From contig VFKY01000297.1 in NCBI GenBank assembly GCA_009885275.1, forward strand, positions 1 to 15,926: 15,926 bases of DNA. The letters are read 5' to 3'. Below, piece after piece: positions 1-15,926 of the stretch. How positions within the stretch are numbered: the stretch's first letter is position 1; the number at the start of each line of letters is the position of its first letter. The notes under the pieces are model-generated. The model searched no databases, had not been told where the DNA came from, and saw only the letters and a list, made by a program, of their open reading frames with translations. This DNA is from Verrucomicrobiota bacterium (lineage in GTDB: Bacteria > Verrucomicrobiota > Verrucomicrobiia > Verrucomicrobiales > Verrucomicrobiaceae). The translations under genes were made by a program, and so were the position numbers.

Positions 1-276
1 AAGACCGGTCAGCGCTTCATAAACGGCTCCGGAGTCGGGCACGAAGCCGAGAAGACGTTTCGCGGCAATGGGATCAGCGACCACATCCACACCACAGATC
101 AACGCTGTTCCGGCATCAGGTTTCAACATGCCCGTAAGCATCTTGAGCGTAGTGGTTTTCCCCGCACCGTTGGGCCCTAGTAGGCCAACGATCATGCCCG
201 ATGGCACATCTAGCGTGAGTCCGTCCACGGCTTTTTGTGTGCCGTAGTATTTGGTGAGGCCCTGAATGGAAATCAT
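1..276 (-). CDS. ABC transporter ATP-binding protein, N-terminal part (cut by window edge)
   Basis: This is the nucleotide-binding subunit of an ABC transporter, expected to hydrolyse ATP on the cytoplasmic face of the inner membrane and drive a partner permease. The 92 codons in the window start MISIQGLTKYYG, the usual beginning of this family, followed by a Walker A motif at residues 34-42 (GPNGAGKTT). The Q-loop region reads LGFVPDSGAVYEALTG, with Asp where many relatives have Gln; this variant is common in ATPases of ABC-2 type exporters. The signature motif, Walker B and H-loop lie beyond base 1. The ATG at 274-276 is the natural start because the family begins directly there. It is divergent from the isomerase-like gene at 416. 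The substrate cannot be told from this fragment. Confidence 0.93.
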   Translation of the reverse strand, partial: MISIQGLTKYYGTQKAVDGLTLDVPSGMIVGLLGPNGAGKTTTLKMLTGMLKPDAGTALICGVDVVADPIAAKRLLGFVPDSGAVYEALTGL

Positions 277-415
277 GGAATGAGCAGTCTAGGGAGTCCC
301 TGATGCAAGCGTCAATACCCCATCATGGATTATCTATTCTTTTGACGTGATTTTTTCTACCACCTCTTTACACTCGCCGCTCAGAAATTCTCAATTTAAA
401 TCAAACTCAGACAAT

Positions 416-1444
416 ATGGCTCATACCTATCCAAAATTACACAATGCCATGTGGCCCGGCCTCGTTGGCAAGGGCGACGGACCTGATCAAGAACCACCGA
501 TCAGTCTTGAACGCATGCTCGAACTCACTGCTCAAGCAGAGGTGAACGGACAAAAATTCGAGGGAGTAGACTACTTCCTCTTTCATCCGCATACAAATCC
601 TGAGGCGAGTGAAGATGAGCTAAAGGGCATTGCTGACCTTATTGCCAGCAAGGGCTTCAGTGTAGGATCTCTTGTGGCTCCAGTTTGGCAGGGCACTGTT
701 GGGGACTCCGCGATGGGAGACGATGTCGCGCAAGAAAAGTTCCTAAGTGCGGTGAAGATGGCCTGTCGTATTGCGGGTATTTTTAACAAGCACGGCGTGC
801 GTAAGGGGGGAGTCATTCGCGTTGATTCCGCTGAGTTCGGTATTGCAAAATGGCGTGAGAACCCCAAGGCAAACACCTCACGTATTGCGGACACTTTCAA
901 GAAAGCGGCAAAAATTGCAGCCGATCATGGGGAACGTCTTGCCGCAGAAGGTGAAATCTGTTGGGCTGGCATGCACTCTTGGAAGGATATGCTGGATGTA
1001 TTGGAAGAAGTAGGGATGCCGGAGTCATTTGGCTTTCAAGCGGATCTGGCCCATACATACCTATATCTTTTAGGCTACAATGCCCCTGAGCATGGTCTTC
1101 TTAAAGATGGTTACAGCGATGCTGAGTTCTGGGCTGCTTACGAACAAATGACGGACAAGCTGCGTCCATGGACCATTGATTTCCATGTCGCTCAGAATGA
1201 CGGCACGGTTCATGGAGCAGGCGCTCATGACAAAACAGGCAAGCATTGTCAAGCTGACGATCCGAATGGTAAGCTCGACATCACCAAGTGCGCTGGCTAT
1301 TGGCTCAAAGACGCTGCCAGCCGTGGCATCCAGCACATTTGCTGGGATGGTTGCATGTTCCCTAACGCCGTGTTGGAGAAGCCTGAAACCTGGAACACCA
1401 TCCTTGCCTCCATGATCAAGGTGCGCGATGCGCATGGTTGGTAA
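416..1444 (+). CDS. Sugar phosphate isomerase/epimerase-like TIM-barrel protein (xylose isomerase-like family)
   Basis: A 342-residue protein of the xylose isomerase-like TIM-barrel superfamily (AP endonuclease 2 fold). These soluble cytoplasmic enzymes interconvert sugars or inositols using a bound divalent metal. Possible metal ligands are visible at E178 or E180 (AAEGEICW), D210 (FQADLAHTY), H257 (DFHVAQNDG) and D311 (CWDGCMF), the order expected for the barrel. The [13 protein letters not shown] stretch around 266-278 is rich in His and may add to the site. The frame is open further upstream to a GTG at 347, but the ATG at 416 gives a normal start; the 23 extra residues are Ser/Asn-rich and unlike the family. 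It stands alone and is followed by a strong terminator. The exact substrate is not recognisable. Confidence 0.85.
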
Positions 1445-1458
1445 TAGAGTTCTCTAGC

Positions 1459-1478
1459 GAGGAAGGTATACTTTCCTC
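1459..1478. other. Stem-loop just upstream of the terminator
   Basis: An inverted repeat pairs 1459-1466 with 1471-1478 (eight pairs, one of them G-T) around a TATA loop. There is no T-run directly after it on either strand, so it is not itself a typical terminator. It sits 9 bases before the terminator stem and may protect the mRNA 3' end or form a tandem hairpin with it. Confidence 0.45.
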
Positions 1479-1482
1479 AATC

Positions 1483-1518
1483 AAAAAGCCTCATCGCCAT
1501 GTGCGATGAGGCTTTTTT
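1483..1518. terminator. Bidirectional intrinsic terminator
   Basis: A perfect 10-bp stem (1488-1497 with 1503-1512) encloses the loop CATGT. It is flanked by five A on the left (1483-1487) and six T on the right (1513-1518). Read on the plus strand it terminates the isomerase-like gene; read on the minus strand the A-run becomes a U-run and it terminates the Prc protease gene, whose stop codon is about 40 bases away. The A and T runs extend the stem further. Confidence 0.93.
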
Positions 1519-1559
1519 ATGCAATCGATTGATCACTGCACTGTTGTTAAAATGGAGAA

Positions 1560-3935
1560 CTAAGAACCTGCGGGCTTTTTAGGTTCACCAGTGTTAGCGG
1601 TCTGTGGTTGGTGGCCGGATAGTTCAATGAGGTCAGTTAAAATGTTCAGCGTTTCTAACTTCACGGGTTCAATGCCGTAGGGGAATTGATTGCTGAGTTC
1701 AGCGCTTGTGTCATCATCATCTGAACTCACTGCGGCGGTTCTCATGCCGGAAGTTTGTTCCTTAGTAAAGGTGGATTCTTTAACCAACTGCGGTGAGTCA
1801 ACATTGTCGAGTGTGAGTCGAAATTGGGTGTAGCCTTCCTTACTTAGTTCTGCGGTTTGTTTTACTCGATTTTTACGCTCATCCTTGCGTGCATCGAATC
1901 GAACTTTATTATCATCGATCTCCTTTTGACGTTCCTTTTCATTGAGGCTGACTGTATTCTTGTCGATGCGTTCTTTGAAGCGCTTTGTATCCTCTAGGAT
2001 GTATTGGAATTCAGGATTGGTTTCCATACGGCTTTTGACGCGTGAGCTCAACTCGCTTAATGGGAGAGGGGTTACGGTCGCATAAGTGAAGGTACGTGGA
2101 GGAATAGTGTCATAGGGGAGGGCGTTGGGTAACGCGTCTTCACCAATCTCCATAACATCGCGAACAGAAGGTAAAATGATTTCAGGAACGACGCCCTTAA
2201 GTTGAGTGGAGCCACCAGCGATTCGGTAGAATTTTTGAATGGTTACCTTGAGTGCCCCAGCACGTGATTTGTCACTGAAGAAGGGCATGTAGCGTTCTAC
2301 GGGCAAAATGGTCTGTACAGTACCCTTACCGAAGGTGGATTTTTCGCCAACGATGATAGCGCGACGATAATCCTGAAGGGCTGCAGCAAAAATTTCACTG
2401 GCTGACGCACTGGCTTTATCAGTAAGAACAATGAGGGGGCCTTCATATACCGCACGTTCATTTTCACAATCGCGCCACGTGATATTATCTTTCCAGTCCT
2501 TCGCTTGCACAACGGGACCCTTAGGGACAAAGAGACCGGTGAGCTTGATGGCTTCTTCAAGTGAACCGCCGCCATCACTCCGGAGATCGATCACGAGCCC
2601 TTCAATTTTTTCGGCCATCAGTCTTTTGAGTAAGCGGGCGACATCGGCAGTACAGCTTACTTTTCCATCTTCCATATCTGCGTAGAAAGAAGGCAGGGTA
2701 ATCCAGCCTAGCTTGCTGCTTTTTCCGTTTACGGGTGGTGTAAGAAGCAATTCAGCGTTGGCGAGCTTTTCCTTCAAGTCCACATTGCCACGCACAATGG
2801 AAATAATCTTAATTTCTGAAGGATCATCAGCTGAGGCGGGATTTACTTTCATACGTACGACGCTTCCGGCTTTGCCGCGGATCATCTCGACAATTTTTTG
2901 GAGCTTCATGTATTTGGTATCAACCCAATCACTATCACTGCCACTGCCTTCACCCTGACTGACGGACAAAATCTTGTCTCCCACCTTAAGTTCACTTTGT
3001 TTGTCAGCGGGGCCACCAACGACAATTCCCTGAATTTCAGCAACATTATCTTTGGTGCTGAGAAGGGCGCCAATACCTACGAGAGAATGATTCATTTGAA
3101 TCTTGAAATTATCCGACTCTTGCTGACTCATGTATTCCGTATGAGGGTCGTAAGTCGTAGCAAGACAGGATAGGAAGTAATTCACGATATCCTCCTGATC
3201 GTTCTCAGCTAATTGCTCCAAAAGACGTTCATAACGTTTTGAAACCCGTTTTTCCGGTGGGTCTTCCGCTTCTTCAGGCTTAGCAGGTTTTACGGCAACT
3301 TTGGCCTCAATTTTCTCATCAGGCTTTGCGGCGGCATCAGTTTTTGGAGCATCTGGTTTTACTTCAGAAGCTTTTTTGGCTTTTGCTTCCGCCTTCTTTT
3401 TCTGAGATTCGGCACGCGCCTTGTCTGAGAGGTATTCTGCTAGTAGATCACCTTCGATAAGATCACTCCACAGCTTGTCTGCGGCCGCTTCATCTTTAGG
3501 CCAAGGGGCTTTTTCCCGTTTGATATCTAGGCTTCGAGTAGAATCAAAGGTGAATTTTTTTGTCTCCAGTGTTTTCTTGGCAAAAGCGACGTGTTGTTTT
3601 ACCCGTTCTTCATATTTGTAATAGATATCAAGTGCCGGACTGATGTTCCTAGTGAGCACATGCTCGTCTAGACTGGTTTCGTATTCGGCCTTAAATTTAT
3701 CCACATCTTGTTGAGTGAAGTAAATGTGGCTGTAATCCAGAAAGTTCAGGTAACTATCGAGCAGCTTTTTGGAAACTTTATCATCAAACTCCTGTCGCGC
3801 GTAATGCTGGTTTTGAAGCATGTAAGCCACATGCATGGCGACCTGACCGAAGTTGGTTTCAGCAGGTGATGGGGTGGCTGCCGTCAGTGATAATAGTATC
3901 GCAGCAGAGAGGAATCGCGATGTAGCCTTGCGCAT
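1560..3935 (-). CDS. prc: Carboxy-terminal processing (tail-specific) protease, Prc type, peptidase family S41
   Basis: A 791-residue exported serine protease of the Prc/Tsp group, which cleaves periplasmic proteins from their C-termini and in E. coli trims cell-wall enzymes and misfolded proteins. A signal peptide is visible at residues 1-25 (hydrophobic core AAILLSLTAA, cleavage near PAE). The order is: N-terminal helical region (about 28-170), Lys/Ala/Glu/Pro-rich linker (about 171-232), RYERLLEQL segment leading to DPHTEYMS, PDZ domain (about 275-385), protease core, and a charged C-terminal region resembling the Prc-specific C-terminal domain (about 620-780). The Ser/Lys catalytic dyad is S511 in ASASASEIF and K537 in TFGKGTVQ, by match to S430/K455 of E. 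coli Prc. It is longer than E. coli Prc (682 residues), partly because of the linker. The ATG at 3933-3935 directly begins the signal peptide. Confidence 0.95.
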   Translation of the reverse strand: MRKATSRFLSAAILLSLTAATPSPAETNFGQVAMHVAYMLQNQHYARQEFDDKVSKKLLDSYLNFLDYSHIYFTQQDVDKFKAEYETSLDEHVLTRNISPALDIYYKYEERVKQHVAFAKKTLETKKFTFDSTRSLDIKREKAPWPKDEAAADKLWSDLIEGDLLAEYLSDKARAESQKKKAEAKAKKASEVKPDAPKTDAAAKPDEKIEAKVAVKPAKPEEAEDPPEKRVSKRYERLLEQLAENDQEDIVNYFLSCLATTYDPHTEYMSQQESDNFKIQMNHSLVGIGALLSTKDNVAEIQGIVVGGPADKQSELKVGDKILSVSQGEGSGSDSDWVDTKYMKLQKIVEMIRGKAGSVVRMKVNPASADDPSEIKIISIVRGNVDLKEKLANAELLLTPPVNGKSSKLGWITLPSFYADMEDGKVSCTADVARLLKRLMAEKIEGLVIDLRSDGGGSLEEAIKLTGLFVPKGPVVQAKDWKDNITWRDCENERAVYEGPLIVLTDKASASASEIFAAALQDYRRAIIVGEKSTFGKGTVQTILPVERYMPFFSDKSRAGALKVTIQKFYRIAGGSTQLKGVVPEIILPSVRDVMEIGEDALPNALPYDTIPPRTFTYATVTPLPLSELSSRVKSRMETNPEFQYILEDTKRFKERIDKNTVSLNEKERQKEIDDNKVRFDARKDERKNRVKQTAELSKEGYTQFRLTLDNVDSPQLVKESTFTKEQTSGMRTAAVSSDDDDTSAELSNQFPYGIEPVKLETLNILTDLIELSGHQPQTANTGEPKKPAGS

Positions 3936-3961
3936 ATGCTTAGAGTAGTTGAAATATAAAC

Positions 3962-3991
3962 GAATCTCAGATTCAAATCGTTCGTAGATTC
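3962..3991. promoter_or_regulatory. Inverted repeat in the prc / hydrolase divergent promoter region
   Basis: GAATCT-C-AGATTC (3962-3974) is a perfect 6-bp dyad with a one-base centre, and a third AGATTC lies at 3986-3991. It falls in the 97-base gap between the divergent starts of prc (3935) and the metallo-hydrolase (4033), where an operator would be expected. No convincing -35/-10 pair could be fixed around it, so the role is a guess. Confidence 0.3.
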
Positions 3992-4032
3992 TCGCTTTTT
4001 TGCATTTAAATGTCCAACGCTTTCCCGCTCAA

Positions 4033-4662
4033 ATGGCCTCTATATCTCAAATTTCATGTTATACAGGCGGAATTGCCGAAACGAATGGCTACTTGGTGGA
4101 GACAACAGAGGGTAATTTCGTGGTAGATGCACCGGAAGGCATGGCTGACTGGCTTCGCAATAATGGCAAAAAAGTGTCTGCGGTTCTGCTGACTCACCAG
4201 CACTTTGATCACGTCCTGGATGCTGCTGCTATTCAAAAGGAGCATGGTGCTAAAATTTATGCGCACTCACCCTTTTCACGTGAGCTGACTCTCGAGTTCC
4301 TCATGGGCTTTGTCAGCGGAACAAGTTTTCAAGTTCAGGAGTTTCAGGTAGATGAACTGCTTGCTGGCAAAGACACACTTGAGCTGATGGGGTTGACCTG
4401 GCAAACCGCATCTATTCCAGGACACTCCGTCGATAGTATTGCATTTTATCAAACAGGGAAAAATCTCCTATTCGGCGGTGATGTTCTATTTCAAGGAAGC
4501 ATTGGACGCACTGACTTCCCTAATGGCAGTCAAACTCTCTTGCTGCAAGGGATTGCGCGACACATGATGACTCTTCCCGATGAAACACATGTCTTGTCGG
4601 GGCATGGTCCCGCTACCACGATAGGAAACGAGCGTCTCAATAACGCGTATCTGGAAGGCTAA
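4033..4662 (+). CDS. Metallo-beta-lactamase-fold hydrolase, glyoxalase II-like
   Basis: A 209-residue soluble hydrolase with the full metal-binding set of the metallo-beta-lactamase fold: H55-x-H57-x-D59-H60 (THQHFDH), H131 (PGHS), D150 (FGGD) and H191 (SGHGP). The closing segments FQGSIGRTDFP and SGHGPATTIGNER are typical of the short glyoxalase II-like group, which usually hydrolyses thioesters or related esters. It lacks the C-terminal helical substrate domain of classical hydroxyacylglutathione hydrolase, so glutathione thioesters are not assured. The ATG at 4033 is preferred; the frame runs up to a TTG at 4000 but the 11 added residues look non-conserved. It ends 5 bases before the stop of the convergent halogenase-like gene. 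Confidence 0.92.
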   Translation: MASISQISCYTGGIAETNGYLVETTEGNFVVDAPEGMADWLRNNGKKVSAVLLTHQHFDHVLDAAAIQKEHGAKIYAHSPFSRELTLEFLMGFVSGTSFQVQEFQVDELLAGKDTLELMGLTWQTASIPGHSVDSIAFYQTGKNLLFGGDVLFQGSIGRTDFPNGSQTLLLQGIARHMMTLPDETHVLSGHGPATTIGNERLNNAYLEG

Positions 4663-4667
4663 AGTTA

Positions 4668-5957
4668 CTAAACTCCCGCCAGAGTGGGGGGCACTTGTTC
4701 TTGATTGCGGGCGCCCGTCTTCCCGTAATCGATTTCCACAGGCAGGGTCGCAATGTTACTGATGGCGTCAAAGAGGTTTTGAAATTTTTGCTTCATATCG
4801 CCTATGAGACAATCCGTGAGGTTGCCTCTGACTTCTGGATTGGATTTAATCAGCTTACCGAAGCTGAAATTATCATCGTAAAATGCATAGACGATTTTAC
4901 GCATGGTCTCGATATGGCTGCATAATTCGGTGCCATATGCATCGAACTGATCTGCCGTGAAAACGCCTTTTTTTAAGGCTTGATCGACTGCTTCGGCCAC
5001 CATTTCACCGCTTTTCAAAGCGAGAAAAACACCACTGGAGAAGACGGGGTCAAGAAACGCAAAAGCATCACCAGCCAGCACAATGCCATCTGCAGCACAG
5101 TGTTTGGAGCGATAGGAGAACTCACCCGTCACCCAATATTCACCTAGGGATTCACCAATGCTGAGATGGTCCTGAATCCAAGCATTGTTTTGGATCTCAC
5201 GGTTGAAGATCGTCCCGATGTCTCGGGTGTCGCGGTAAAGATAATCACGCTCGGCAACGATGCCGACACTGACGATGTCATTCGTGAGTGGAATATACCA
5301 GAACCAGCCTTTCCCTGGAAGGTAAGCGACGGTCGTCGAGCCGGCATCAAGCCCGGTGTCACGCTTTGCGCCTTTCCAATAGGTCCAAACAGCGATCTTG
5401 TTGAGCTCAGGGTCGCGCATTTTCCATTGATTTTTTGATAGCCAGAAGGAATCCCGCCCTGTGCAATCGACTGTGATCGGGGCATGAAAGCATGCTTCAT
5501 CTCCTTCCGCATTTTCCGCACAGACTCCAATTACACCGCCGGTTTCATCGTGCAGCGTGCGCAGAACTTTGGTCTCATCTATGGCAACGACGCCCTTACT
5601 GATGGCATTTTTCCAGAGCATTTCATCAAAACGGGAGCGCTCTACCTGCCATGAATAAGAGGAAGGATGATCGTTGTGCTGGAAGAAATAGAAGGGCCGT
5701 GATTGTTGTCCGTCTTGATTAACAAATTGCACGCTGAGTTTTTGTACAAACCCGAGACGTTGCATTTCTGGCAGCACTCCCAAACGTTCCAGTGAGTACC
5801 AACAAAATGGCATCAACGATTCTCCAATGTGGTAGCGTGGGACTTTGCTTTTTTCTAATAGCAGAACACGATGCCCCTTCTCCGTGAGCAAGGTTGCAGT
5901 GGCACAGCCTGCGGGACCGCCGCCGATGACGATAGTGTCGTAATGATTCGATGACAT
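4668..5957 (-). CDS. Flavin-dependent halogenase-like FAD oxidoreductase
   Basis: A 429-residue flavoprotein, last gene of the four-gene block. Residues 12-17 (GGGPAG) form the FAD dinucleotide-binding turn and E35 of LLLEKS is the likely ribose-binding acid. RYHIGESLMP follows at 41-50 and AGDAF near 295 is the second FAD motif. Two signatures described for FADH2-dependent halogenases are present: W-x-W-x-I-P at 218-223 (WFWYIP) and F-x-x-P-x-x-S-x-G at 301-309 (FLDPVFSSG). K73 in GFVQK falls where I would expect the catalytic lysine of phenol and pyrrole halogenases. The protein may therefore halogenate an aromatic compound with a partner flavin reductase, but the same fold includes geranylgeranyl reductase-like and hydroxylating relatives. 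I chose the ATG at 5957; a TTG at 5966 has an AGAGG ten bases ahead and would add three residues. Confidence 0.85.
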   Translation of the reverse strand: MSSNHYDTIVIGGGPAGCATATLLTEKGHRVLLLEKSKVPRYHIGESLMPFCWYSLERLGVLPEMQRLGFVQKLSVQFVNQDGQQSRPFYFFQHNDHPSSYSWQVERSRFDEMLWKNAISKGVVAIDETKVLRTLHDETGGVIGVCAENAEGDEACFHAPITVDCTGRDSFWLSKNQWKMRDPELNKIAVWTYWKGAKRDTGLDAGSTTVAYLPGKGWFWYIPLTNDIVSVGIVAERDYLYRDTRDIGTIFNREIQNNAWIQDHLSIGESLGEYWVTGEFSYRSKHCAADGIVLAGDAFAFLDPVFSSGVFLALKSGEMVAEAVDQALKKGVFTADQFDAYGTELCSHIETMRKIVYAFYDDNFSFGKLIKSNPEVRGNLTDCLIGDMKQKFQNLFDAISNIATLPVEIDYGKTGARNQEQVPPTLAGV

Positions 5958-5996
5958 AGGATTCAACGTAAATACGCCTCTGATAGCGGTCTCGCG

Positions 5997-6557
5997 CTAA
6001 TTTGCTTTGGGTAACACTTCAACGACTTCGGCCAGTGGTGCCCCATTGCTGTGTCGGAGTTCGTTGCAGCGACCATAAAGTATTTGGCCTTCACTGGCTC
6101 CGAGAAGGTTCGCGAGACGGTGATCAATCTCAATGCGAAAATACCCACTAGGATGGCTGGTGTGAGCGACGGAATGGTCCATTAGCAGCCCGCCCAATGG
6201 CTTTTTACATTCAAGAATGTCCAGACGCGCTTGTTCGCTAAAGCCTTCCAAATGAATGCCGATAGCTCCAAACTCAATAGGGCTCTCATCCGTTTTTTTC
6301 TTCAAGACGGAAGCCCGAACCAGATAGTTTCCAAGTTGGGATTTGGCGTGAACATCCAGAATGATCTCACATCCGTGATGTTCTGCCAGACGCGGAGTCA
6401 TATCACTTTCGTGAACCAATAAGACGCGCTCTGTGTCTGGCATCTCTTCCGCTTGAATGAAGGTTACTTTAGGGCTCTCACTGGCGAGACCATAAAAGAA
6501 ACGAAGCGGTGCGAGAATGTCGGTTCTCGTTGTTTCTTGTTCAATAGTGGGTGGCAT
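5997..6557 (-). CDS. Chorismate lyase-like protein (chorismate to hydroxybenzoate plus pyruvate)
   Basis: A 186-residue protein with the layout of the chorismate pyruvate-lyase fold, closest in style to the Rv2949c/DUF98 branch rather than E. coli UbiC. Visible landmarks are LLVHESDMTPRL (46-57), YLVRASVL with R81 (position of UbiC R76), IEFGAIGIHL (94-103), PLGGLL (120-125), ILYGRCNEL (159-167) and PLAEVVEVLP with E180 (position of UbiC E155). The family cleaves chorismate into 4-hydroxybenzoate and pyruvate in the cytoplasm; the E. coli enzyme feeds ubiquinone and the mycobacterial one phenolic glycolipids. It lies 39 bases upstream of the halogenase-like gene and 42 bases downstream of the radical SAM gene, so it probably supplies an aromatic precursor to that block. 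No Shine-Dalgarno is seen. Which hydroxybenzoate isomer is made cannot be told. Confidence 0.8.
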   Translation of the reverse strand: MPPTIEQETTRTDILAPLRFFYGLASESPKVTFIQAEEMPDTERVLLVHESDMTPRLAEHHGCEIILDVHAKSQLGNYLVRASVLKKKTDESPIEFGAIGIHLEGFSEQARLDILECKKPLGGLLMDHSVAHTSHPSGYFRIEIDHRLANLLGASEGQILYGRCNELRHSNGAPLAEVVEVLPKAN

Positions 6558-6599
6558 GACGGAAGTAAGGGTTGATTATCTTTCGCAGTGAGATGCTGA

Positions 6600-7946
6600 C
6601 TAGGTGTATCTGGCTGAGCGGTGGTGAGGCATGAAAAACTCATGAAGCAATCGGTCGATCTGAAGCAGCCCTTCGCGTGTGAGTTTAATTTCATCATTCC
6701 CGAGCGAGGCAAAGCCCTCATCACGCATCCAACCAAGCTGTGAGGCAAAGCGAGTCATGACATCCTCACCGAACTTATTTTTATAATAGGAAGGCTTCAC
6801 GCTGCCCAGTTTCATTTTGAGAATGAACTCGCGGACAAATCGCTCATCAGGGCTCGTGGCGTATGCCCGAAAGATAGCGCTCTCCCCGCGTTCTATGGTT
6901 TCAATATAAGGCACAATGTCTGCCTGATTTTGCAGATGAATGCCGCCGAGATGTCCGAAGGAGGCAACCCCAATGGGGAGCAAATCTGCCCCATCCCACA
7001 AGGCGTCACGATAGACGAACTTGATCTTGTTCGGGTCTTTGACCACGGTATAGGCACTGGTCACGGTGTAGCCCACTTTTTCAAATTCATCGAAAGCGTA
7101 ACTCACCCATTCACGCTTGGTTTCCCAGTCGGCAACAGGGGCGGTCTCTTTGCCTTCTGTCTGCATTTGTTTGTAAATGCCGGTGTTGTAGGGCACTTCC
7201 ATTTGATAAATGGTCACGCAGTCAGGCTGCATGGTGATGGCCTTTGCAACAGCGGCTCTCCACAACTCCGTGGTGTCGTTCATCATCCCGGCGATGAGGT
7301 CAATATTGATGTGTTCAAAACCAAGACCGCGGGCAAAATTATACGCCCGAGCCACTTCGCCACTGCGGTGAGCCCGACCATTGGATTCTAGAATATGGTC
7401 ATCGAAATGCTCGACACCAAGGCTCAAACGGGTGACTCCGATTTCGCGAAGTGCTTCGAGTTTTTTCTCGTTGAGAGTGCCTGGTTCCGCTTCAAAGGCG
7501 ACCTCTTCCGCTTCATCCCATGGCATGAGTTCTTTCATGCGATTGGTCAGCTCTTGAAGCTGTGGCACACTAAGATAAGAGGGGGTGCCACCGCCAAAGT
7601 AAACGAACTTAGGCTTTCTTCCCGCGAGGTAGGGGCGTTTGGCATAGCGCTCAAACTCCGTAGTTGCGGCATGGATATAGGCGCGAATTTCACTGGCGTT
7701 CTTGTCGGTATAAACGCGGAAGTAGCAGAAGTGACAGCGTTTCCGGCAGAAAGGTATATGCATGTAAACCCCTAGCGGGATGTCATGCGGCGCTGGTGAA
7801 TCGAGTAATTTCTCTACGGCGAATACCTGTTCCTTTTGCCAGAAAGAAAAAGGGGGATAGTTCGCAACAAAGTAATTTCCGGCTTCCGTAACGTGCTTCT
7901 TGGCAATCTTTGCGTCTGTAGAGGGAGTATCTGTAACGGTGGACAT
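6600..7946 (-). CDS. HemW/HemN-like radical SAM enzyme
   Basis: A 448-residue radical S-adenosylmethionine protein. The 4Fe-4S-binding motif is C67-x3-C71-x2-C74 (CRKRCHFC), preceded by YMHIPF as in coproporphyrinogen oxidase relatives. YFGGGTPS (116-123) is the SAM-binding GGE-like segment, EAEPG (152-156) and RLSLGVEHF (173-181) follow, and a HemN-type C-terminal domain spans about 375-440. The residue after the third Cys is Tyr-Phe, so the extra Cys of true HemN (CxxxCxxCxC) is missing; this points to the HemW-like or radical SAM methyltransferase side of the family. N-terminal NYPPFSFW is typical of a less-studied branch. Context next to chorismate lyase-like and halogenase-like genes suggests a role in a secondary aromatic product rather than haem synthesis, but a haem chaperone role cannot be excluded. 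Confidence 0.88.
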   Translation of the reverse strand: MSTVTDTPSTDAKIAKKHVTEAGNYFVANYPPFSFWQKEQVFAVEKLLDSPAPHDIPLGVYMHIPFCRKRCHFCYFRVYTDKNASEIRAYIHAATTEFERYAKRPYLAGRKPKFVYFGGGTPSYLSVPQLQELTNRMKELMPWDEAEEVAFEAEPGTLNEKKLEALREIGVTRLSLGVEHFDDHILESNGRAHRSGEVARAYNFARGLGFEHINIDLIAGMMNDTTELWRAAVAKAITMQPDCVTIYQMEVPYNTGIYKQMQTEGKETAPVADWETKREWVSYAFDEFEKVGYTVTSAYTVVKDPNKIKFVYRDALWDGADLLPIGVASFGHLGGIHLQNQADIVPYIETIERGESAIFRAYATSPDERFVREFILKMKLGSVKPSYYKNKFGEDVMTRFASQLGWMRDEGFASLGNDEIKLTREGLLQIDRLLHEFFMPHHRSARYT

Positions 7947-8002
7947 GGATGATGAAGGGGGATGGGCTGACAGATATGTGGAATGGACTTCGGTTATATT
8001 AC

Positions 8003-9169
8003 TTATTTTGCGGGTGCTGGGATATTACTTTTTCCATTCTTAAAACAGTAAACACTTCCGTCATCAGCGCCGATGAGGATAAAGTCTCCAGCCACTGCAG
8101 GGGCGGATTTGACAGGGGCGCCTATCTCATAACGCCATTTTTCCTCACCTTTGGACAGATCAATTGCATAAAAATAGCCATCATTACTGCCGAAAATGAC
8201 ATGGGCGTTGGCGCAGATGATGGGGGAGCTGTCAACGTCACCCTTGGTACGGAATTGCCATTTCGCTTCGCCTTTACTGCGATCAAGCCCATGCACACGC
8301 TTATCTCTTCCGCCTGCGATGACCCACTGATCATTCACGGCTGGGGCGGCATAATAGGGGAATTCGCGTTCTCCGTACTCCCAAAGTCTTGCTCCATCGC
8401 CAAAGGAAAAGGCCGCGACACGATTCCCGTAATGGGCCACGTAGGCAACACCCTTATCGGTCACCACATTGTTTCCCATGTAGGCTCCTACTTCGATCTT
8501 TTTCGTTTCCTTACCTGTGGCCATGTCCAACACATAGAGCGTGCCGTCGCATCCACCGAAGATGACTTGGTTTTCATAAATTGCCGCTGCCCCATTGATG
8601 TAATTAGTTGTTTCATAGTCCCATAGTTTTACCCCTGTGACTGCATCGAGACAGTAAAGCTTGTTGTCGTAACTGCCGATCAGGACGCGCAATTTGCCAT
8701 CAGGTGCGGTCCAGATGTTCACGCCCCCATGAATTTCCCCTTGGGTCTCGAATTTCCATACTTCCTTGCCAGTGGAGGCATCGAAGGCATAAACAAAAGC
8801 ATCCCCGCATCCCACGATGATCAGGTCGCCCGCAAATCCGGCATTCCCTTCAAAGAAGCTCTTCTTTTCGACTTTCCATATTTCCTTGCCCGTGATCAGG
8901 TCAAGACAAGCAAAATTGCCAGTTTGCGATCCCACATAGATTTTACCAGCACGCACGACGGGAGTGGCAATAACGCCTTCACGTTTGGTTTTGTTGCCAA
9001 GCTCTGTTGACCAAGCCAACTCCAGAGGGAAGTTCAGAGCGGTGGATGAAAGACCAGTCATTGCCGCATTGCCACGAGCGAAAGTCCAATCTTGGGTCGG
9101 CGATACCTGTGCGTCACATAGAACAGGTGAGAGGGCTAGTATAAAAGATAGAAAACAGGGGTGATTCAT
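8003..9169 (-). CDS. Secreted PQQ-type beta-propeller repeat protein
   Basis: A 388-residue exported protein made almost wholly of beta-propeller blades of the PQQ-enzyme/BamB type. An N-terminal signal peptide (core FLSFILALSP, likely cleavage after CDA at 18-20) sends it to the periplasm. Seven blade-closing motifs of the form (T)GKEIW-K are visible, at about 94-99, 134-139, 179-184, 219-224, 259-264, 300-305 and 341-346. Some have lost the Trp (GKETKKIE). There is no catalytic domain of a quinoprotein dehydrogenase and no clear lipobox, so it is more likely a binding or scaffold protein than an enzyme. It is the first gene of the minus-strand block, 56 bases ahead of the radical SAM gene. 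Its partner or ligand is unknown; the other three products look cytoplasmic, which makes its place in the block unexplained. Confidence 0.88.
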   Translation of the reverse strand: MNHPCFLSFILALSPVLCDAQVSPTQDWTFARGNAAMTGLSSTALNFPLELAWSTELGNKTKREGVIATPVVRAGKIYVGSQTGNFACLDLITGKEIWKVEKKSFFEGNAGFAGDLIIVGCGDAFVYAFDASTGKEVWKFETQGEIHGGVNIWTAPDGKLRVLIGSYDNKLYCLDAVTGVKLWDYETTNYINGAAAIYENQVIFGGCDGTLYVLDMATGKETKKIEVGAYMGNNVVTDKGVAYVAHYGNRVAAFSFGDGARLWEYGEREFPYYAAPAVNDQWVIAGGRDKRVHGLDRSKGEAKWQFRTKGDVDSSPIICANAHVIFGSNDGYFYAIDLSKGEEKWRYEIGAPVKSAPAVAGDFILIGADDGSVYCFKNGKSNIPAPAK

Positions 9170-9280
9170 GAGTGTTTGGCTTGCGGAGACGATATTTGTT
9201 TCATTGAAAACTTGGTGTCATCGTTACTTTATGGTTTGATGGAAACGAAACATAATCTCATCCTGTTTCACTGACACCGC

Positions 9281-9967
9281 ATGAAAGACGAATCGCAACC
9301 CCCAATCATTCCTCGTGAATTCCATTCTGAATACGAAGATCGCGCGTTTCAGAACTGCTCGCGCTGTGGGGAAGCGTTGAATGTTTTTGACAACTACCAG
9401 ATCAATAAAGCCTTCCGCAATGGCGAGTGCGTCTTCGAATATGCTTTCTGTGCACCGTGTCGCGATGCCATGATGGATGAGTTCTCAGAAGAGTCCAAAA
9501 AGAATTTGATGGAGCATCAACAGACTCATTTGCGTGAAACGCATGGCATCGGCGAATGCGCATTCTGTGGTCAATCACAAGCGGAAACCCCCATGAAAGA
9601 CTTTGTGATTACGGCGCTTTGCCGGAGTGATCGCATGTTGGACAGCCTCATGATTTGTGAATCCTGTCAGATGAGTGCCCATGAATTACTCAGTGAAAAA
9701 ACCCGCGATGTCCGCCGCCGTTTCTTTGAGGAACTGCCCGGAGTACCTCCTGACTGGGAAGTGTGGGATCATGAAGAAAAAGAAAAGACGCTTACGACTG
9801 CCAGTCCGAATCAGGGGCCGTCAACCACGGTGATCCCGCAGGTTACGCATCAGTTGCAGACCGAAGTGAAAGTGGAAGTGGCCACCGAGAAATTACTGAA
9901 AAAGACCGTGAAACATCATGGCGCCTTTCTGGATTGCGGTCTTGAGCTGATCTGGATAGGTCGGTGA
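9281..9967 (+). CDS. Hypothetical protein with two zinc-ribbon-like Cys4 modules
   Basis: A 228-residue protein that I do not recognise. It has four CxxC pairs: C26/C29 (CSRC), C57/C60 (CAPC), C93/C96 (CAFC) and C126/C129 (CESC). Pairing first with second and third with fourth gives two Cys4 sites with similar inner spacing (27 and 29 residues between pairs), each with one more Cys inside (C50, C114) and each followed by an acidic helix-like stretch. This suggests an internal duplication of a zinc ribbon. Residues after about 165 are Thr/Gln/Lys/Val-rich and look disordered. No signal peptide or membrane segment is seen, so it is likely cytoplasmic; binding to nucleic acid or protein is plausible but unproven. 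The stop codon lies within a short tandem repeat. It is divergent from the propeller gene. Confidence 0.75.
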   Translation: MKDESQPPIIPREFHSEYEDRAFQNCSRCGEALNVFDNYQINKAFRNGECVFEYAFCAPCRDAMMDEFSEESKKNLMEHQQTHLRETHGIGECAFCGQSQAETPMKDFVITALCRSDRMLDSLMICESCQMSAHELLSEKTRDVRRRFFEELPGVPPDWEVWDHEEKEKTLTTASPNQGPSTTVIPQVTHQLQTEVKVEVATEKLLKKTVKHHGAFLDCGLELIWIGR

Positions 9968-9982
9968 GACGGTGAGTCGGTG
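9959..9982 (+). repeat. Three tandem octamers across a stop codon
   Basis: GGTCGGTG, AGACGGTG and AGTCGGTG follow one another without a gap, and the TGA of the zinc-ribbon gene (9965-9967) lies across the first junction. The GACGGTG at 9968-9974 also has an exact inverted partner CACCGTC at 10004-10010, so this stretch can fold back on the sequence after it. Confidence 0.6.
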
Positions 9983-10033
9983 TGTGTCGACAGAGATGTG
10001 CGCCACCGTCTTCCGTTGCCTGGGCATTATTAA

Positions 10034-10102
10034 AGCACCGTAGGTGCGACATCTTTGTAGAAAACGAGAGTGTTGAAATATGAGCCCCGTAGGGTGCGAC
10101 AT
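10034..10102. repeat. Pair of REP-like palindromic repeats
   Basis: Two direct near-copies lie 30 bases apart: AGCACCGTAGGTGCGACAT (10034-10052) and AGCCCCGTAGGGTGCGACAT (10083-10102). The first contains a perfect hairpin, GCACC-GTA-GGTGC; the second contains CCC-GTA-GGG. Between them is CTTTGTAGAAAACGAGAG. Short hairpins with a GTA centre followed by GCGACAT are, in my recollection, a dispersed repeat of REP type in several verrucomicrobial and planctomycetal genomes. They fill most of the 156-base space between two convergent genes and may act in 3'-end processing or termination. Confidence 0.6.
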
Positions 10103-10123
10103 ACTGAGTCATTCCCTACCTGA

Positions 10124-11287
10124 TTAAAAAGCCTCCATCCGATCCCATCCAATCTTGTCGAGATACCACGCCAGTATAGGCGGTCCGTAGAAGAGCCAGA
10201 TCATGGCACCCCCAGCGAGATAAGGGCCGAATGGAATCTTTGCGGTCCATTCAGTCTTGCCAAAAATACGTGGCACGATGGCGAAGAGGCTGGCCAGAAG
10301 CGATGCGGCGAAAACGGTAAAAATGATCGCCTTCCAACCGAGAAAGCTGCCGATCATGGCTAACAATAACACGTCACCAAATCCCATGGCTTCACGGGGA
10401 ATCACGATCTCAGTCGCTTTGCCTTTAAGGGTTGTGACATCTTCCAATTTAAAGGATTGTTCAGCACCTTCCAACGGCATCACTTTCATGGTTTCCATTT
10501 TAATTTCCGTCTTGGACTGATTGAAAACACTCTGGTTCACCGTGATCTCCGTGCCCTGAATAATAAGGCGATCACTGGGGCGAGTGAAGATGTCATCCCA
10601 CGAAAGTGCATCTCCGGCGACTTTGAGAAGAGGTGGTTCATCTTCATTCGTCTGTGTGATGCTCCAGTCTTCGGGCTGTTCAAAGCGATGGCGCAATCGA
10701 CCAAATGCTAGTTTACCAAGTTCCACCACCGTCCAGAGTAAACCAAGTCCAAAGCAAGCGCTGACAAAGGAAAATACAATGCCGAGCCCACGATCTTTTT
10801 CCCCCATGATTTCAGGGGCGATATAGCTTCCGAGTAGTCCCACAAACAATCCACCCAGAGTGATTTGATGGGGGAGGATGTAGTGATCAATATCAATGTA
10901 GGTGCCAGCAATCAATAAAGCGGTGAAAATCCAATAGATCAGCACCACGCTTCCCCAGTCGCTGACATGAAAGAGAGAGCCGGAGAATTTTAAAAACACG
11001 ACATAAAAAAGACCCGCCGTAAGCAGTTCGACGAAGAAATAACGGAAGGGAATATTACCCTTGCAGTAGGCGCATTTACCTCGCAGCGAGAGCCAACTCA
11101 GGAGAGGGATGTTGTGATACCAAGCGATCTGATGCTTGCACTTAGGACAGAAGGAGCGCTTGGGATTGCTCACTGACATGTTGAGTGGCAAGCGATAAAT
11201 CACGACATTTAAGAACGACCCAATTCCCGCACCGAGCAGAAGGATCATGATGTGTAAAATGACTTCGAGGATCAAAAAGGGATTCAT
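10124..11287 (-). CDS. pilD: Prepilin peptidase (type IV leader peptidase, A24 family)
   Basis: A 387-residue inner-membrane aspartic protease that cleaves, and in bifunctional members N-methylates, type IV pilin or type II secretion pseudopilin precursors. The N-terminal domain has the zinc-binding Cys pairs C47/C50 (CPKC) and C72/C75 (CAYC) around WYHNIPLLSWL. The catalytic aspartates sit in TYIDIDHYILP (D132 or D134) and in the GFGD motif (D305). Several hydrophobic segments are visible, at about 8-32, 85-100, 112-130, 143-157, 168-190, 305-335 and 352-375. A hydrophilic insert of about 100 residues (196-297) separates the two aspartate regions, making the protein longer than typical PilD (about 290 residues). 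It stands alone, with no pilin genes beside it, so substrates must be encoded elsewhere. Confidence 0.95.
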   Translation of the reverse strand: MNPFLILEVILHIMILLLGAGIGSFLNVVIYRLPLNMSVSNPKRSFCPKCKHQIAWYHNIPLLSWLSLRGKCAYCKGNIPFRYFFVELLTAGLFYVVFLKFSGSLFHVSDWGSVVLIYWIFTALLIAGTYIDIDHYILPHQITLGGLFVGLLGSYIAPEIMGEKDRGLGIVFSFVSACFGLGLLWTVVELGKLAFGRLRHRFEQPEDWSITQTNEDEPPLLKVAGDALSWDDIFTRPSDRLIIQGTEITVNQSVFNQSKTEIKMETMKVMPLEGAEQSFKLEDVTTLKGKATEIVIPREAMGFGDVLLLAMIGSFLGWKAIIFTVFAASLLASLFAIVPRIFGKTEWTAKIPFGPYLAGGAMIWLFYGPPILAWYLDKIGWDRMEAF

Positions 11288-11399
11288 GAATTAATTTGAG
11301 AAGTGTAAACAAATGCGGCGGTGTGAAAAGGAGAAGTGCAGAATACCTTTATCTTTGACAACACTTGCCAAAGACTGACTGCCCGACAAGTTCCATATC

Positions 11400-12092
11400 G
11401 TGCGTATTTTCTCCAAGACCATCTTGGCTATTCCATTTTTCTTTCTTAGCGCCTGCGCTTCATCGCAACGGATGTCCCATGACGTTATTCAACGGGCTGC
11501 AACCCATGATCTCATTGAGGTGAGCAGTGTCTGCCCTGATATCACCATCGAACTTCGATACATGACTGCGAAGAATGTCGCCTACACAAAGGTGTATCCG
11601 AAAGACATGCCCTGCCTTCTTTATCGTAGCACGATGGGGAAATTGCAGAGAGCTCAGGCGATATTTAAAGAGAGTGGGTACCGCTTAAAAATCTTTGATG
11701 CCTGGCGTCCCGCAGAAGTGCAGAGAACACTCTTTGATCATGGTAGCTATACAAATATGTTCACTGACCCGAGCATCATGTGGTCGAAGCATTGCTCAGG
11801 GGTTGCGGTTGATGTAACGCTGATCAATAAGCAGGGCAGGGAAGTGAAAATGCCCTCACCCTTTGATGATGGTGGCTCTCGAGCTGCTGCTATTTACATG
11901 GGAGATGACCCTGAAGTTCGACAGAATCTCTTGCTTCTTCAATCGGTCATGACGCAATGTGGTTTTAACATTCTTGACATTGAATGGTGGCACTTCGGTG
12001 ATGCTGATTTTGAGGATGCACCACCACCGCCCATTGTATATGCTTCAGAGCTTGGTATTATACTTCCGATTGTGAAAAAGAAAGCACTTTGA
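11400..12092 (+). CDS. ddpX: D-alanyl-D-alanine dipeptidase (VanX/DdpX-like, peptidase M15D), lipoprotein
   Basis: A 230-residue zinc dipeptidase that splits D-Ala-D-Ala. The catalytic set matches VanX: R103 (DAWRP), H131 and D138 in SKHCSGVAVD, and E195/H198 in EWWHF, with MPSPFDDGG in place of the usual MGTPFDxF. Unlike cytoplasmic VanX it begins with a lipoprotein signal: MRIFSKTILAIPFFF followed by lipobox LSAC (C19), so it is probably anchored in the periplasm and would act on peptides released from the wall. This signal supports the GTG start at 11400; the first in-frame ATG (residue 25) would remove it. It precedes cca by four bases and is likely co-transcribed with it. Turnover or scavenging of peptidoglycan peptides is more likely than glycopeptide resistance, as no vanH or vanA-like gene is present. 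Confidence 0.9.
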   Translation: MRIFSKTILAIPFFFLSACASSQRMSHDVIQRAATHDLIEVSSVCPDITIELRYMTAKNVAYTKVYPKDMPCLLYRSTMGKLQRAQAIFKESGYRLKIFDAWRPAEVQRTLFDHGSYTNMFTDPSIMWSKHCSGVAVDVTLINKQGREVKMPSPFDDGGSRAAAIYMGDDPEVRQNLLLLQSVMTQCGFNILDIEWWHFGDADFEDAPPPPIVYASELGIILPIVKKKAL

Positions 12093-12096
12093 CGAT

Positions 12097-13416
12097 ATGA
12101 GAGAATCCGCCATCCGCGTCGTGCAAACTCTAGTAAATGCTGGCTTCCAAGCCGTATTTGCCGGTGGGTGTGTGCGTGATGCTCTTTTGAAAGTAGTGCC
12201 CAAGGACTATGATATAGCCACGAATGCACGTCCCGATGAGGTGCAGAAATTGTTTCCAAAATCGGTCGCCGTGGGTGCGCACTTCGGTGTCATTATTGTG
12301 AGAGAAAATGGGCATCAGTTTGATGTCGCTACGTTTCGCCGTGATGGCAATTATTTGGATGGCCGCCGCCCTGATTCGGTCGAATTCACAAGTGCAGAGG
12401 AAGACGCCAAGCGACGCGATTTTACCGTGAACGGTATTTTCTATGATCCATTGACGCAGCAACACCTTGATTACGTGGGTGGTTGTGATGACCTCAAAGC
12501 TCGCAAGCTATGTGCGATTGGCGATGCCAAATCGCGCTTCCAAGAGGATCATCTTAGGCTCCTTCGAGCTGTGCGTTTTGCCACTGTATTGGGGTTTGAT
12601 ATTGAGACCAACACCTGGCAGGCAATCTGTGAGCTCAGTGCGGAAATCAAGTTGATTAGTCCAGAGCGAGTGAGGGAGGAGTTGGTGAAAATATTTCTGC
12701 ATCCTCAACGAGTCCGTGGGTTTGATCTGCTTGTGGACAGCGGCTTGATGGATGCCGTGCTCCCGGAAATTCTCGTGCTCAAGGGCTGCGAACAACCACC
12801 GCAATTTCATCCTGAAGGTGATGTTTTTGTTCATACTCGTATCATGTTGGGACTGCTTCCTTCAGAGGTTTCACTGCCGCTCGTGCTTGCCGTTTTGCTG
12901 CATGACATCGGCAAGCCTGCGACCTTTCAAATTGATGATACGGGGCGCATTCGCTTCAACACGCATGACAAGCTTGGAGCAGAGATGACTGGAGAGATAC
13001 TGCGTCGACTCAAGTTTCCCAATCACGTGATCGAACCTGCTGTAGAAGCGGTGGCGAATCACATGGTTTTCAAGGACGTGCAGAAGATGCGAGTCTCCAA
13101 GCTCAAGCGTTTCATGGCTCGCCCCATGTTTGAGGATGAAATGGAGCTGCACCGTGTCGATTGCACCAGCAGTCATGGCATGCTTGATAACTATGAATTT
13201 ATCCGAACCAAGCAGGAAGAGTTTGCTGCGGAGACGGAGCCCTTAATACCTACGCCATTAATTAATGGTCATGATCTCATGAAGCGTGGGATTGCGCCTG
13301 GACCGAAACTAGGGGAGTTACTTACCGCAATTCAAAATCTACAACTGGAAGGCACACTGCACACGCAAGAAGAGGCATTGGACTGGCTTAAAGGACAGGG
13401 TTTAATACCTCCGTAA
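12097..13416 (+). CDS. cca: CCA tRNA nucleotidyltransferase / poly(A) polymerase family protein with HD domain
   Basis: A 439-residue class II nucleotidyltransferase, expected to add or repair the 3' CCA end of tRNA in the cytoplasm. The N-terminal head has FAGGCVRD (21-28) and the catalytic pair D37/D39 in DYDIATNA. RRDFTVNG (106-113) and the EDHLRLLRAVRF segment (150-161), the nucleotide-selecting neck region, follow. An HD phosphohydrolase-type domain is present (H269-D270 in LLHDIGKP, with a preceding HPEGDVFVHT). Poly(A) polymerases share the head domain, so some uncertainty remains, but the HD domain and lack of a basic C-terminal tail favour CCA addition. The ATG at 12097 is four bases after the dipeptidase stop, and no Shine-Dalgarno is present, so translational coupling is possible. 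Confidence 0.9.
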   Translation: MRESAIRVVQTLVNAGFQAVFAGGCVRDALLKVVPKDYDIATNARPDEVQKLFPKSVAVGAHFGVIIVRENGHQFDVATFRRDGNYLDGRRPDSVEFTSAEEDAKRRDFTVNGIFYDPLTQQHLDYVGGCDDLKARKLCAIGDAKSRFQEDHLRLLRAVRFATVLGFDIETNTWQAICELSAEIKLISPERVREELVKIFLHPQRVRGFDLLVDSGLMDAVLPEILVLKGCEQPPQFHPEGDVFVHTRIMLGLLPSEVSLPLVLAVLLHDIGKPATFQIDDTGRIRFNTHDKLGAEMTGEILRRLKFPNHVIEPAVEAVANHMVFKDVQKMRVSKLKRFMARPMFEDEMELHRVDCTSSHGMLDNYEFIRTKQEEFAAETEPLIPTPLINGHDLMKRGIAPGPKLGELLTAIQNLQLEGTLHTQEEALDWLKGQGLIPP

Positions 13417-13469
13417 GTTTGGTCTCAAATATTTATCACCTTCGATCGGCCGTCTGAACAAGTGCTGTA

Positions 13470-13892
13470 TTATGGATTTTCTGGATTGCTTTGAGGTTTG
13501 AGAATGCCGTTTTTGTCGGTTGGCCAGAAAGCACCATCCTCGATCCATTCCCGTAACATGCCAATTTGATCATCTGTTAGACTGATGTCAGTACGAGGCA
13601 TTAATTTTAAGTGCGCCCCTGAACGTTGGACAGCCGTAACAAGCAAGCTCTGATCAGGTCGCCCGGGTAGGATATAGTTCTGTCCTCTGGAGTTGCGTTT
13701 AAAGGCGTCGTCTTTACTGGTAAGATTGAGTGCGGGAGATGGCATGGTGCCATTGTGACAACGCAAACAATTTTGCTGAAGCACGGGTTTCACTTCGGTG
13801 AGGAAATATTGTTCTTTAACATTACTGTGATTGGGAATGGTGGAACAAGATGCGGCGATGAAAAAAACGCCAAATAATAGAAGTCGATTCAT
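13470..13892 (-). CDS. Small c-type cytochrome lipoprotein, planctomycete-type
   Basis: A 140-residue single-haem cytochrome. Haem attachment is at C42-x-x-C45-H46 (CLRCH), with M98 (KLMPR) the likely sixth ligand. The order VKPVLQQNCLRCHNG, LNLTSKDD, GRPDQSLL and LTDDQIGMLREWIEDGA follows the Planctomycete cytochrome c (PSCyt1-like) family. In that family the domain is often fused to large DUF1549/DUF1553 proteins; here it is solitary. The N-terminus has a hydrophobic signal followed by IAASC (C16), a passable but not ideal lipobox, so a membrane-anchored periplasmic location is likely. The ATG at 13890-13892 begins the signal. It would pass electrons between periplasmic partners, which are not identified. 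It is divergent from msrP with 194 bases between, and no dehydrogenase is adjacent. Confidence 0.87.
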   Translation of the reverse strand: MNRLLLFGVFFIAASCSTIPNHSNVKEQYFLTEVKPVLQQNCLRCHNGTMPSPALNLTSKDDAFKRNSRGQNYILPGRPDQSLLVTAVQRSGAHLKLMPRTDISLTDDQIGMLREWIEDGAFWPTDKNGILKPQSNPENP

Positions 13893-14086
13893 GGAGAGAT
13901 TCTAGCCGTAATTGATCACTGAACCAAGCATTGATTGCGCAGTTCAAGGCTGAATCTGCTATAGAGTTTGAGGTTAAAGGTGTGATTTAGACTTTTGCGA
14001 GTTGTCGATGGACGAACAAATCAAATATTTATGGGAATATCCTTCTTACTTGCACCTCTGACGAATAATCCTATGATTTCTCTTCG

Positions 14087-15052: not shown

Positions 15053-15058
15053 TTCACC

Positions 15059-15667: not shown

Positions 15668-15670
15668 AGA

Positions 15671-15714
15671 GTTAGCATATGGCGGCACAAGGATGAGCTC
15701 TAGGGGTTGCTAAC
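15671..15714. other. Inverted repeat downstream of msrQ
   Basis: GTTAGCA (15671-15677) and TGCTAAC (15708-15714) are exact inverted copies separated by 30 bases, starting three bases after the msrQ stop. There is no T-run behind the right arm, so it is not a standard terminator; it may be a 3'-end hairpin or chance. The rest of the 182-base gap up to 15849 shows nothing I can name. Confidence 0.3.
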
Positions 15715-15849
15715 AGACCTGATGATGCGCCATTTATGGAAGTGGTGAATTAGAGTTGCGTAATTGTCACGGGGGCGATGGCATCCTTGATCGAAAGTCG
15801 TATCGAGTACGCACTTGATTAGGTAATGGCACAAGTTTAGCCTTACTAC

Positions 15850-15926
15850 ATGACCAGAATCAATCTAAATGAGGTCAAGTCGCGTCTCTCTTTCTACGCT
15901 AAGTTGGTCAAGTCTGGTGAGACTAT
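15850..15926 (+). CDS. Phd/YefM-like antitoxin, N-terminal part (cut by window edge)
   Basis: The first 25 codons read MTRINLNEVKSRLSFYAKLV followed by KSGET. This matches the start of Phd/YefM-family antitoxins, where a short strand is followed by a helix of the form L-x-E-x-K-x-x-L-S-x-x-x-x-x-V-x-x-G-E and then a second strand. These proteins bind the promoter of their own operon through this N-terminal part and neutralise a toxin, often a VapC/PIN or RelE-like protein, with the C-terminal part. The toxin gene would lie to the right of the window. Only a fragment is visible, so the family call rests on pattern alone. Confidence 0.65.
   Translation, partial: MTRINLNEVKSRLSFYAKLVKSGET

Follow-up and report, generated by a model that had tools for sequence, protein, structure and literature searches.

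The stretch analysed here, referred to as the window, comprises positions 1 to 15,926 (15,926 nucleotides) of contig VFKY01000297.1 of a Verrucomicrobiota bacterium from the family Verrucomicrobiaceae (assembly GCA_009885275.1). We describe a block of four minus-strand genes in it, encoding a beta-propeller protein (PROP), a radical S-adenosylmethionine (SAM) enzyme of HemN fold (RSAM), a chorismate-lyase-like protein (UBIC) and a halogenase-family protein dependent on flavin adenine dinucleotide (FAD) (HAL). The open reading frames (ORFs) lie at 9169-8003, 7946-6600, 6557-5997 and 5966-4668 (388, 448, 186 and 432 amino acids), and the ORF map bore out the arrangement given in an earlier sequence-only reading, namely four genes on one strand between a divergent and a convergent neighbour. 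That reading put the intergenic gaps at 39 to 56 bases, which holds for the first two (56 and 42 bases); the last measures 30 bases with the halogenase starting at TTG 5966, or 39 with the alternative start ATG 5957. The block comprises the following features:

8003..9169, minus strand: PROP, PQQ_2/BamB-like beta-propeller, 388 amino acids (Pfam PF13570, PF13360)
6600..7946, minus strand: RSAM, HemN-fold radical SAM enzyme, 448 amino acids, with the signature HIPFCR[KR]RCxFCY (HV in a few)
7725..7748, minus strand: RSAM codons of C67-C74, CRKRCHFC, [4Fe-4S] site (alignment)
5997..6557, minus strand: UBIC, chorismate-lyase-like protein, 186 amino acids (fold of the AlphaFold model)
4668..5966, minus strand: HAL, FAD-dependent halogenase-family protein, 432 amino acids (PF04820, PDB matches, motifs)
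5739..5741, minus strand: HAL codon of Lys76, aligned with the lysine of PDB halogenases (alignment)
5286..5309, minus strand: HAL GWFWYIPL, the WxWxIP motif (alignment)

Gene order was compared in 71 loci around RSAM (loci are numbered L, genomes G): 24 from the window's family, 26 from other Verrucomicrobiota and 21 from Planctomycetota, the last being L091 and 20 stretches chosen from 35 carrier genomes. Duplicate loci (L070, L071, L073, L074, L076-L079, L082) and the short loci L001-L040 were dropped; near-identical loci within the counts are L083, L084 and L099 on the one hand and L062 and L065 on the other. Each stop-to-stop frame was given to its best family, two fused UBIC-HAL frames being counted as HAL only, and unclassified genes between members were allowed (L063, L086, L093). 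Loci cut by contig ends include L046, L072, L081 and L096. On this map, the order PROP-RSAM-UBIC-HAL is found in 12 of the 26 other verrucomicrobial and 7 of the 21 planctomycetal loci. Its recurrence outside the family, and even outside the phylum, exceeds what chance would give. RSAM and UBIC are adjacent in 23/24 family loci (a contig end truncates the exception), 18/26 other verrucomicrobial and 9/21 planctomycetal loci, or in 19/26 and 10/21 outside the family if the fused frames are included. PROP is the next set member upstream of RSAM in 10/24, 17/26 and 12/21 loci, respectively, and G005 has the order RSAM-UBIC-HAL without a propeller.

In other loci, the four genes often form part of a longer series of some 15 gene families. 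It begins with a second propeller, an SSF symporter, an EhpF-like adenylating enzyme, an aldehyde dehydrogenase and an Fe-alcohol dehydrogenase (Fe-ADH), continues with the propeller, the radical SAM enzyme, the lyase, the halogenase and a GT4 glycosyltransferase, and ends with a 4HBT thioesterase, a membrane protein, a PaaK-like ligase, a LolD-like ATPase and an FtsX permease. All 15 families occur together in 4 of the 20 planctomycetal stretches (L163, L164, L165, L169). UBIC and HAL are fused in one frame in L066 (Verrucomicrobiota, 597 amino acids) and in L167 (Planctomycetota, 695 amino acids). As fused enzymes usually act successively or together, these fusions tie halogenation to the lyase more directly than any other evidence.

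Co-occurrence was studied with uniform settings in 337 Verrucomicrobiota genomes of at least 85% completeness, a sample that includes the window's own genome at 77%. With E-value limits chosen by the analyst, that for the halogenase being fixed after an earlier halogenase search of the carriers, RSAM (E<=1e-60), the aldehyde dehydrogenase (E<=1e-40) and the halogenase (E<=1e-70) were found in the identical 16 of the 337 genomes. The weakest halogenase match among these carriers has an E-value of 6e-116, and the lyase profile (E<=1e-8) detected 15 of the 16 and no other of the 337 genomes. The carriers span six families, and G244, which belongs to the same genus as two of them, is without all four genes. 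One such identical set would arise by chance at about 1 in 10^27 if genomes were independent, which they are not. In other counts, the halogenase was present in 26/27 carriers and the aldehyde dehydrogenase in 27/27, often unlinked, and the latter also in 10/10 carriers of another search, seven of them new. GT4 was found in 12/13 carriers and 0/4 non-carriers; the PaaK-like gene was full length in 11/13 carriers (a fragment in G005, none in G000), and the four non-carriers gave one weak 28% match. Among 147 Planctomycetota genomes, 35 carry RSAM (E<=1e-60). The prediction of a joint pathway is thus strongly supported by the recurring order, the natural lyase-halogenase fusions and the identical sets of carrier genomes. 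That the four genes are chance neighbours with unrelated roles would fit the family loci, where the UBIC-HAL succession occurs in just 2 of 24, but it is contradicted by the same three observations (carrier sets identical in 16/337 genomes, order across two phyla, fusions), and we regard its probability as next to negligible.

Shared membership was assigned by synteny, and for several families also by fusion or co-occurrence. As judged from the sequences, the block genes belong with the EhpF-like enzyme and aldehyde dehydrogenase, Fe-ADH, GT4, the PaaK-like gene, the thioesterase and the exporter. We consider it probable that the block is part of a conserved pathway, about 15 families in extent and shared by Verrucomicrobiota and Planctomycetota, whose product is an exported, halogenated derivative of 4-hydroxybenzoate with its carboxyl group reduced.

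Within the window's family, RSAM was detected in 64 of 68 genomes (E<=4.5e-74) and is missing in G030, G051, G055 and G057, the last having a fragment at a contig end. The other parts lie at separate places. In the window's genome, the genes for the EhpF-like enzyme, the aldehyde dehydrogenase and Fe-ADH are on contig C228 (L100). The single-contig congener G067 has propeller, radical SAM and lyase genes in L043, the halogenase in L102, GT4 in L187, propeller 2, EhpF-like enzyme, aldehyde and alcohol dehydrogenases in L101, and thioesterase, membrane protein, ligase, ABC and FtsX genes in L188. In this family, the cluster is broken up over several loci while the pathway is retained. The earlier suggestion of a pathway elsewhere that the block might supply fits this picture. 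The sequence-only reading also held that a joint pathway fails if the genes stand singly in close relatives. This is literally the case for the halogenase and the propeller; nevertheless, the joint pathway is not refuted, because genes that have become separated continue to co-occur across the phylum. That the block is an isolated, sporadic biosynthetic cluster was rejected in view of the 64/68 family genomes and the recurrence of the set in another phylum. Loss of the halogenase in the rest of the family was likewise rejected: 19 of the 20 other family genomes whose block lacks HAL have a copy elsewhere, G063 being the one in which no halogenase was found. In a tree of 43 HAL sequences, the window copy stands with that of G005; L080 joins next (97/93), followed by families f2 and f5 (96/95). 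Unlinked halogenases from nine further genomes of the family fall beside clustered Pedosphaera-type (Verrucomicrobiota) copies, suggesting that they serve the same pathway. An ORF resembling an ABC transporter ATPase is often found near the unlinked family halogenase (L104, L106, L107, L109, L110).

HAL matches the Pfam family Trp_halogenase (PF04820) with 103.6 bits (cut-off 21), and its best PDB matches are halogenases (8zop, 8.6e-54; CndH, 3e1t, 1.4e-50). The position of Lys76 is K in 42/43 aligned HAL sequences and stands opposite a K of 8zop and CndH, which we take to be the catalytic lysine of halogenases. WxWxIP is present in 42/43 sequences, the remaining one reading NWFWYLPL, and FLDPVFSSG is exact in 37/43. 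HAL combines the FAD motif, WxWxIP and active-site lysine of flavin-dependent halogenases. Alternatively, the same pathway might use the flavoenzyme as an oxidase, hydroxylase or reductase of the halogenase/geranylgeranyl-reductase superfamily and yield a product without halogen. HAL stays below the curated NCBIfam halogenase equivalog (CmlS, 173.7 of 900 bits), and the QhpG and geranylgeranyl reductase models score it at 120 and 110 bits; set against the halogenase structures as best matches and the three conserved motifs, this makes a non-halogenating enzyme unlikely in our view.

RSAM falls into the Radical_SAM and HemN-like families (Pfam/NCBIfam). C67, C71 and C74 are invariant across a 33-row alignment, giving the CxxxCxxC motif, and a full-length HemN fold is predicted. 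No curated NCBIfam cut-off is reached by RSAM, neither for HutW (180.5 of 400 bits), HemN (174 of 325), STM4012 (173.2 of 380), HemW (163.1 of 205.4) nor HemZ (147.3 of 321.4), for which reason an identity as HemW or HemN proper was rejected. In a PDB search, RSAM matches HemN (118 bits) and NocN (104 bits), the latter a class C radical SAM methyltransferase. By fold and PDB sequence match, RSAM is closer to HemN than to HemW, the name used in the sequence-only reading. RSAM shares the HemN fold and the cysteine motif with HemN and with class C methyltransferases such as NocN and differs from them by its own signature CR[KR]RCxFCY and by scores below the NCBIfam cut-offs.

PROP is recognised by PF13570 (189.8 bits, cut-off 133) and PF13360 (150.6 bits), and it stays below the curated NCBIfam cut-offs for BamB (167.6 of 285.2 bits) and PQQ dehydrogenase (98.1 of 480). 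Judged by eye, it apparently carries an N-terminal signal peptide. In L100, two more propeller proteins (3070-5544 and 5581-7206) lie ahead of the EhpF-like gene (7258-8304), so that the pathway is accompanied by as many as three propellers.

For UBIC, no Pfam or NCBIfam match was found at E<=0.1, which leaves it outside the curated families. The label "chorismate lyase-like" given to the 186-residue protein in the sequence-only reading fits, because the AlphaFold model has the chorismate-lyase/UTRA/DUF98 fold; a profile comparison with UbiC reaches an E-value of only 8e-5. M53, R81 and E180 are invariant, and residue 121 is L or F in the aligned rows examined. The ligand residues of UbiC are Met34, Arg76, Leu114 and Glu155. 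In L063, an 864-residue ORF (6731-9322) with repeated units containing FNDGS and DGDGD separates the radical SAM gene from the lyase gene.

The EhpF-like adenylating enzyme matches EhpF in the PDB at 2.5e-41, and its partner belongs to the ALDH family with general aldehyde dehydrogenases as PDB matches. The two genes adjoin in L100, as would be expected of a candidate aryl-carboxylate reductase. Some plasmid relatives of the EhpF-like enzyme, at 31-33% identity, are annotated as arylcarboxylate reductase, and another lies beside an aldehyde dehydrogenase, DAHP synthase and pabB. For the middle steps of the route, the EhpF-like/aldehyde dehydrogenase pair is the most informative part. A "LuxE/LuxC" label was rejected, since neither protein has a LuxE or LuxC Pfam match and the PDB matches are EhpF and aldehyde dehydrogenases. 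An aryl-polyene, flexirubin or dialkylresorcinol cluster was also rejected: no ketosynthase, acyl carrier protein or ketoreductase was found in the scanned cluster families, a scan which covered the recurring families and few of the ORFs outside these. The flexirubin ligase model gave the PaaK-like gene 106 of 520 bits.

Taken as a pathway, UBIC would convert chorismate to 4-hydroxybenzoate and pyruvate, and HAL, with reduced FAD, O2 and chloride or bromide, would halogenate the ring. HemN-like class C radical SAM enzymes carry out methyl or methylene transfer, and the HemN-fold enzyme may form a carbon-carbon bond, most likely by such a transfer. The adenylating enzyme and the aldehyde dehydrogenase would reduce the carboxylate to the aldehyde, and Fe-ADH would continue to the alcohol. 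Ligase, thioesterase and glycosyltransferase could load or conjugate the product, which the LolD/FtsX-type transporter would export; the propellers would act outside the cytoplasm. The order of these steps is a guess. The earlier proposal of an aromatic compound made from chorismate and halogenated stands as the best-supported chemistry, at the level of fold, motifs and partners.

Several points weigh against a halogenated 4-hydroxybenzoate made by a single pathway. Membership in the halogenase family need not mean halogenation. In the profile alignment, Glu155 of UbiC is one column off the Glu of UBIC, which is level with that of 2nwi instead, and a full residue-by-residue match to UbiC was rejected on this ground. 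UTRA sensor domains fit the UBIC model slightly better than UbiC does; a UTRA-like ligand-binding protein that senses the pathway product in place of a lyase is, however, very improbable in our assessment. UBIC was not found in the planctomycetal loci L166, L168, L171, L173, L174 and L175 (rechecked for all but L175), which keep other parts. In the pair L062/L065, the lyase gene is broken by two stops in the single-contig genome G285 and was not found in G371; in both, the halogenase and the remaining cluster genes were still found. UBIC may therefore be replaceable, and some lineages may have a different source of 4-hydroxybenzoate or a different substrate. Within the family, the four-gene order occurs in 1 of 24 loci, the window alone. 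RSAM has few or no partners in the flanks covered for L176-L180 (planctomycetal) and for L089, L092, L094, L095 and L097 (verrucomicrobial), whose genomes were not searched for other parts; possible explanations are scattering, as in the window's family, or an additional role of the gene. The window's genome, 77% complete, yielded neither GT4 nor a PaaK-like gene. Finally, the phylum searches scored a limited number of candidates per genome, up to 10 for the lyase, 4 for the aldehyde dehydrogenase and 5 each for RSAM and the halogenase.

As to the role of the product, we put forward tentatively, as a possibility, that a halogenated, carboxyl-reduced and radically alkylated 4-hydroxybenzoate glycoconjugate, made by a roughly 15-gene pathway common to PVC bacteria, is a permanent component of their cells (in the envelope, as a redox cofactor or as a signal) rather than an antibiotic made on occasion. 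Such a role would account for the near-universal retention in the family despite the scattered genes. A rival reading, which makes the product a redox cofactor, quinone or structural glycolipid that the cell needs and the propellers bind or use, with no exported secondary metabolite, seems distinctly unlikely. The presence of RSAM in 64/68 family genomes is unusual for a secondary-metabolite gene, and two or three propeller proteins accompany the set; yet the set is patchy in the rest of the phylum, an exporter and a glycosyltransferase belong to it, and no redox enzyme with a new cofactor was seen.

The pairing of chorismate lyase and flavin halogenase is known from the bmp and ambigol pathways, which use P450 coupling. 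The set described here resembles them in the lyase next to an FAD halogenase; unlike them, it has no P450 among the scanned cluster families and includes a radical SAM enzyme and carboxyl reduction. In the mycobacterial phenolic glycolipid/p-HBAD route, a DUF98-type lyase makes 4-hydroxybenzoate that is later glycosylated. The DUF98-like lyase and the glycosyltransferase are shared with that route, whereas here no polyketide synthase was found among the scanned families, and halogenase and carboxyl reduction are present instead. The pairs EhpF/EhpG and GriC/GriD reduce aromatic acids by an adenylating enzyme and an aldehyde dehydrogenase, as proposed here; in our case the pair lies outside the window and the set includes lyase and halogenase.

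According to passages of a 2025 review (PMC12078418), halogenated products of the 4-hydroxybenzoate type are known from planctomycetes. Strain 10988 makes 3,5-dibromo-p-anisic acid (Panter et al. 2019, via PMC12078418), for which pathways or candidate genes are only postulated there. It is likewise a planctomycetal halogenated acid of the 4-hydroxybenzoate type; these passages mention no carboxyl reduction, radical SAM enzyme or glycosyl transfer, the comparison being one of descriptions and not of genes. Alichondrichlorin of Alienimonas chondri joins 4-hydroxybenzoic acid to a chlorinated fatty acid (Vitorino et al. 2025, via PMC12078418). The genes for this ester are given as unknown in the same review, and it shares the planctomycetal source and the 4-hydroxybenzoate unit but differs in carrying its chlorine on the fatty acid. 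No description of the gene set was found in the literature searched, which excludes most subscription papers. Beyond the known pairing of lyase and halogenase, this concerns the combination with the HemN-fold radical SAM enzyme, carboxyl reduction, GT4, the spread over two phyla and the scattering in one family.

The surroundings of the block in the window are as follows:

4000..4662, plus strand: metallo-beta-lactamase-fold hydrolase, convergent neighbour (PF00753)
9281..9967, plus strand: cysteine-rich zinc-ribbon-like ORF, divergent neighbour (no family above cut-off)

The hydrolase ORF stops 5 bases from the halogenase stop and was not found in the 70 other mapped loci with a one-sequence profile (150 bits). 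The zinc-ribbon-like ORF has the same place in 7 other family loci and in 0/47 loci outside the family. By their distribution over the mapped loci, neither flanking gene looks part of the set. A promoter and terminator scan of the block gave sites no more numerous than in shuffled sequence, and therefore a single transcript is neither supported nor opposed; a single operon deduced from the promoter scan was rejected, with nothing above the shuffles. Further along the window, at 14087-15667, a gene for an MsrP-type molybdopterin reductase (436.8 bits, cut-off 207) is followed by an ORF of 202 amino acids, likely the membrane partner MsrQ.

Genes have been assigned to few small molecules of Planctomycetota or Verrucomicrobiota, and the 2025 review counts five planctomycetal compounds or compound classes (PMC12078418). 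For halogenated hydroxybenzoate chemistry, the gene set supplies both phyla with a specific candidate that can be tested, and its HemN-fold family, repeatedly paired with a chorismate lyase, offers a well-defined target in the search for new radical chemistry. The scattering in the window's family illustrates that searches for clusters only can miss a pathway which co-occurrence reveals.

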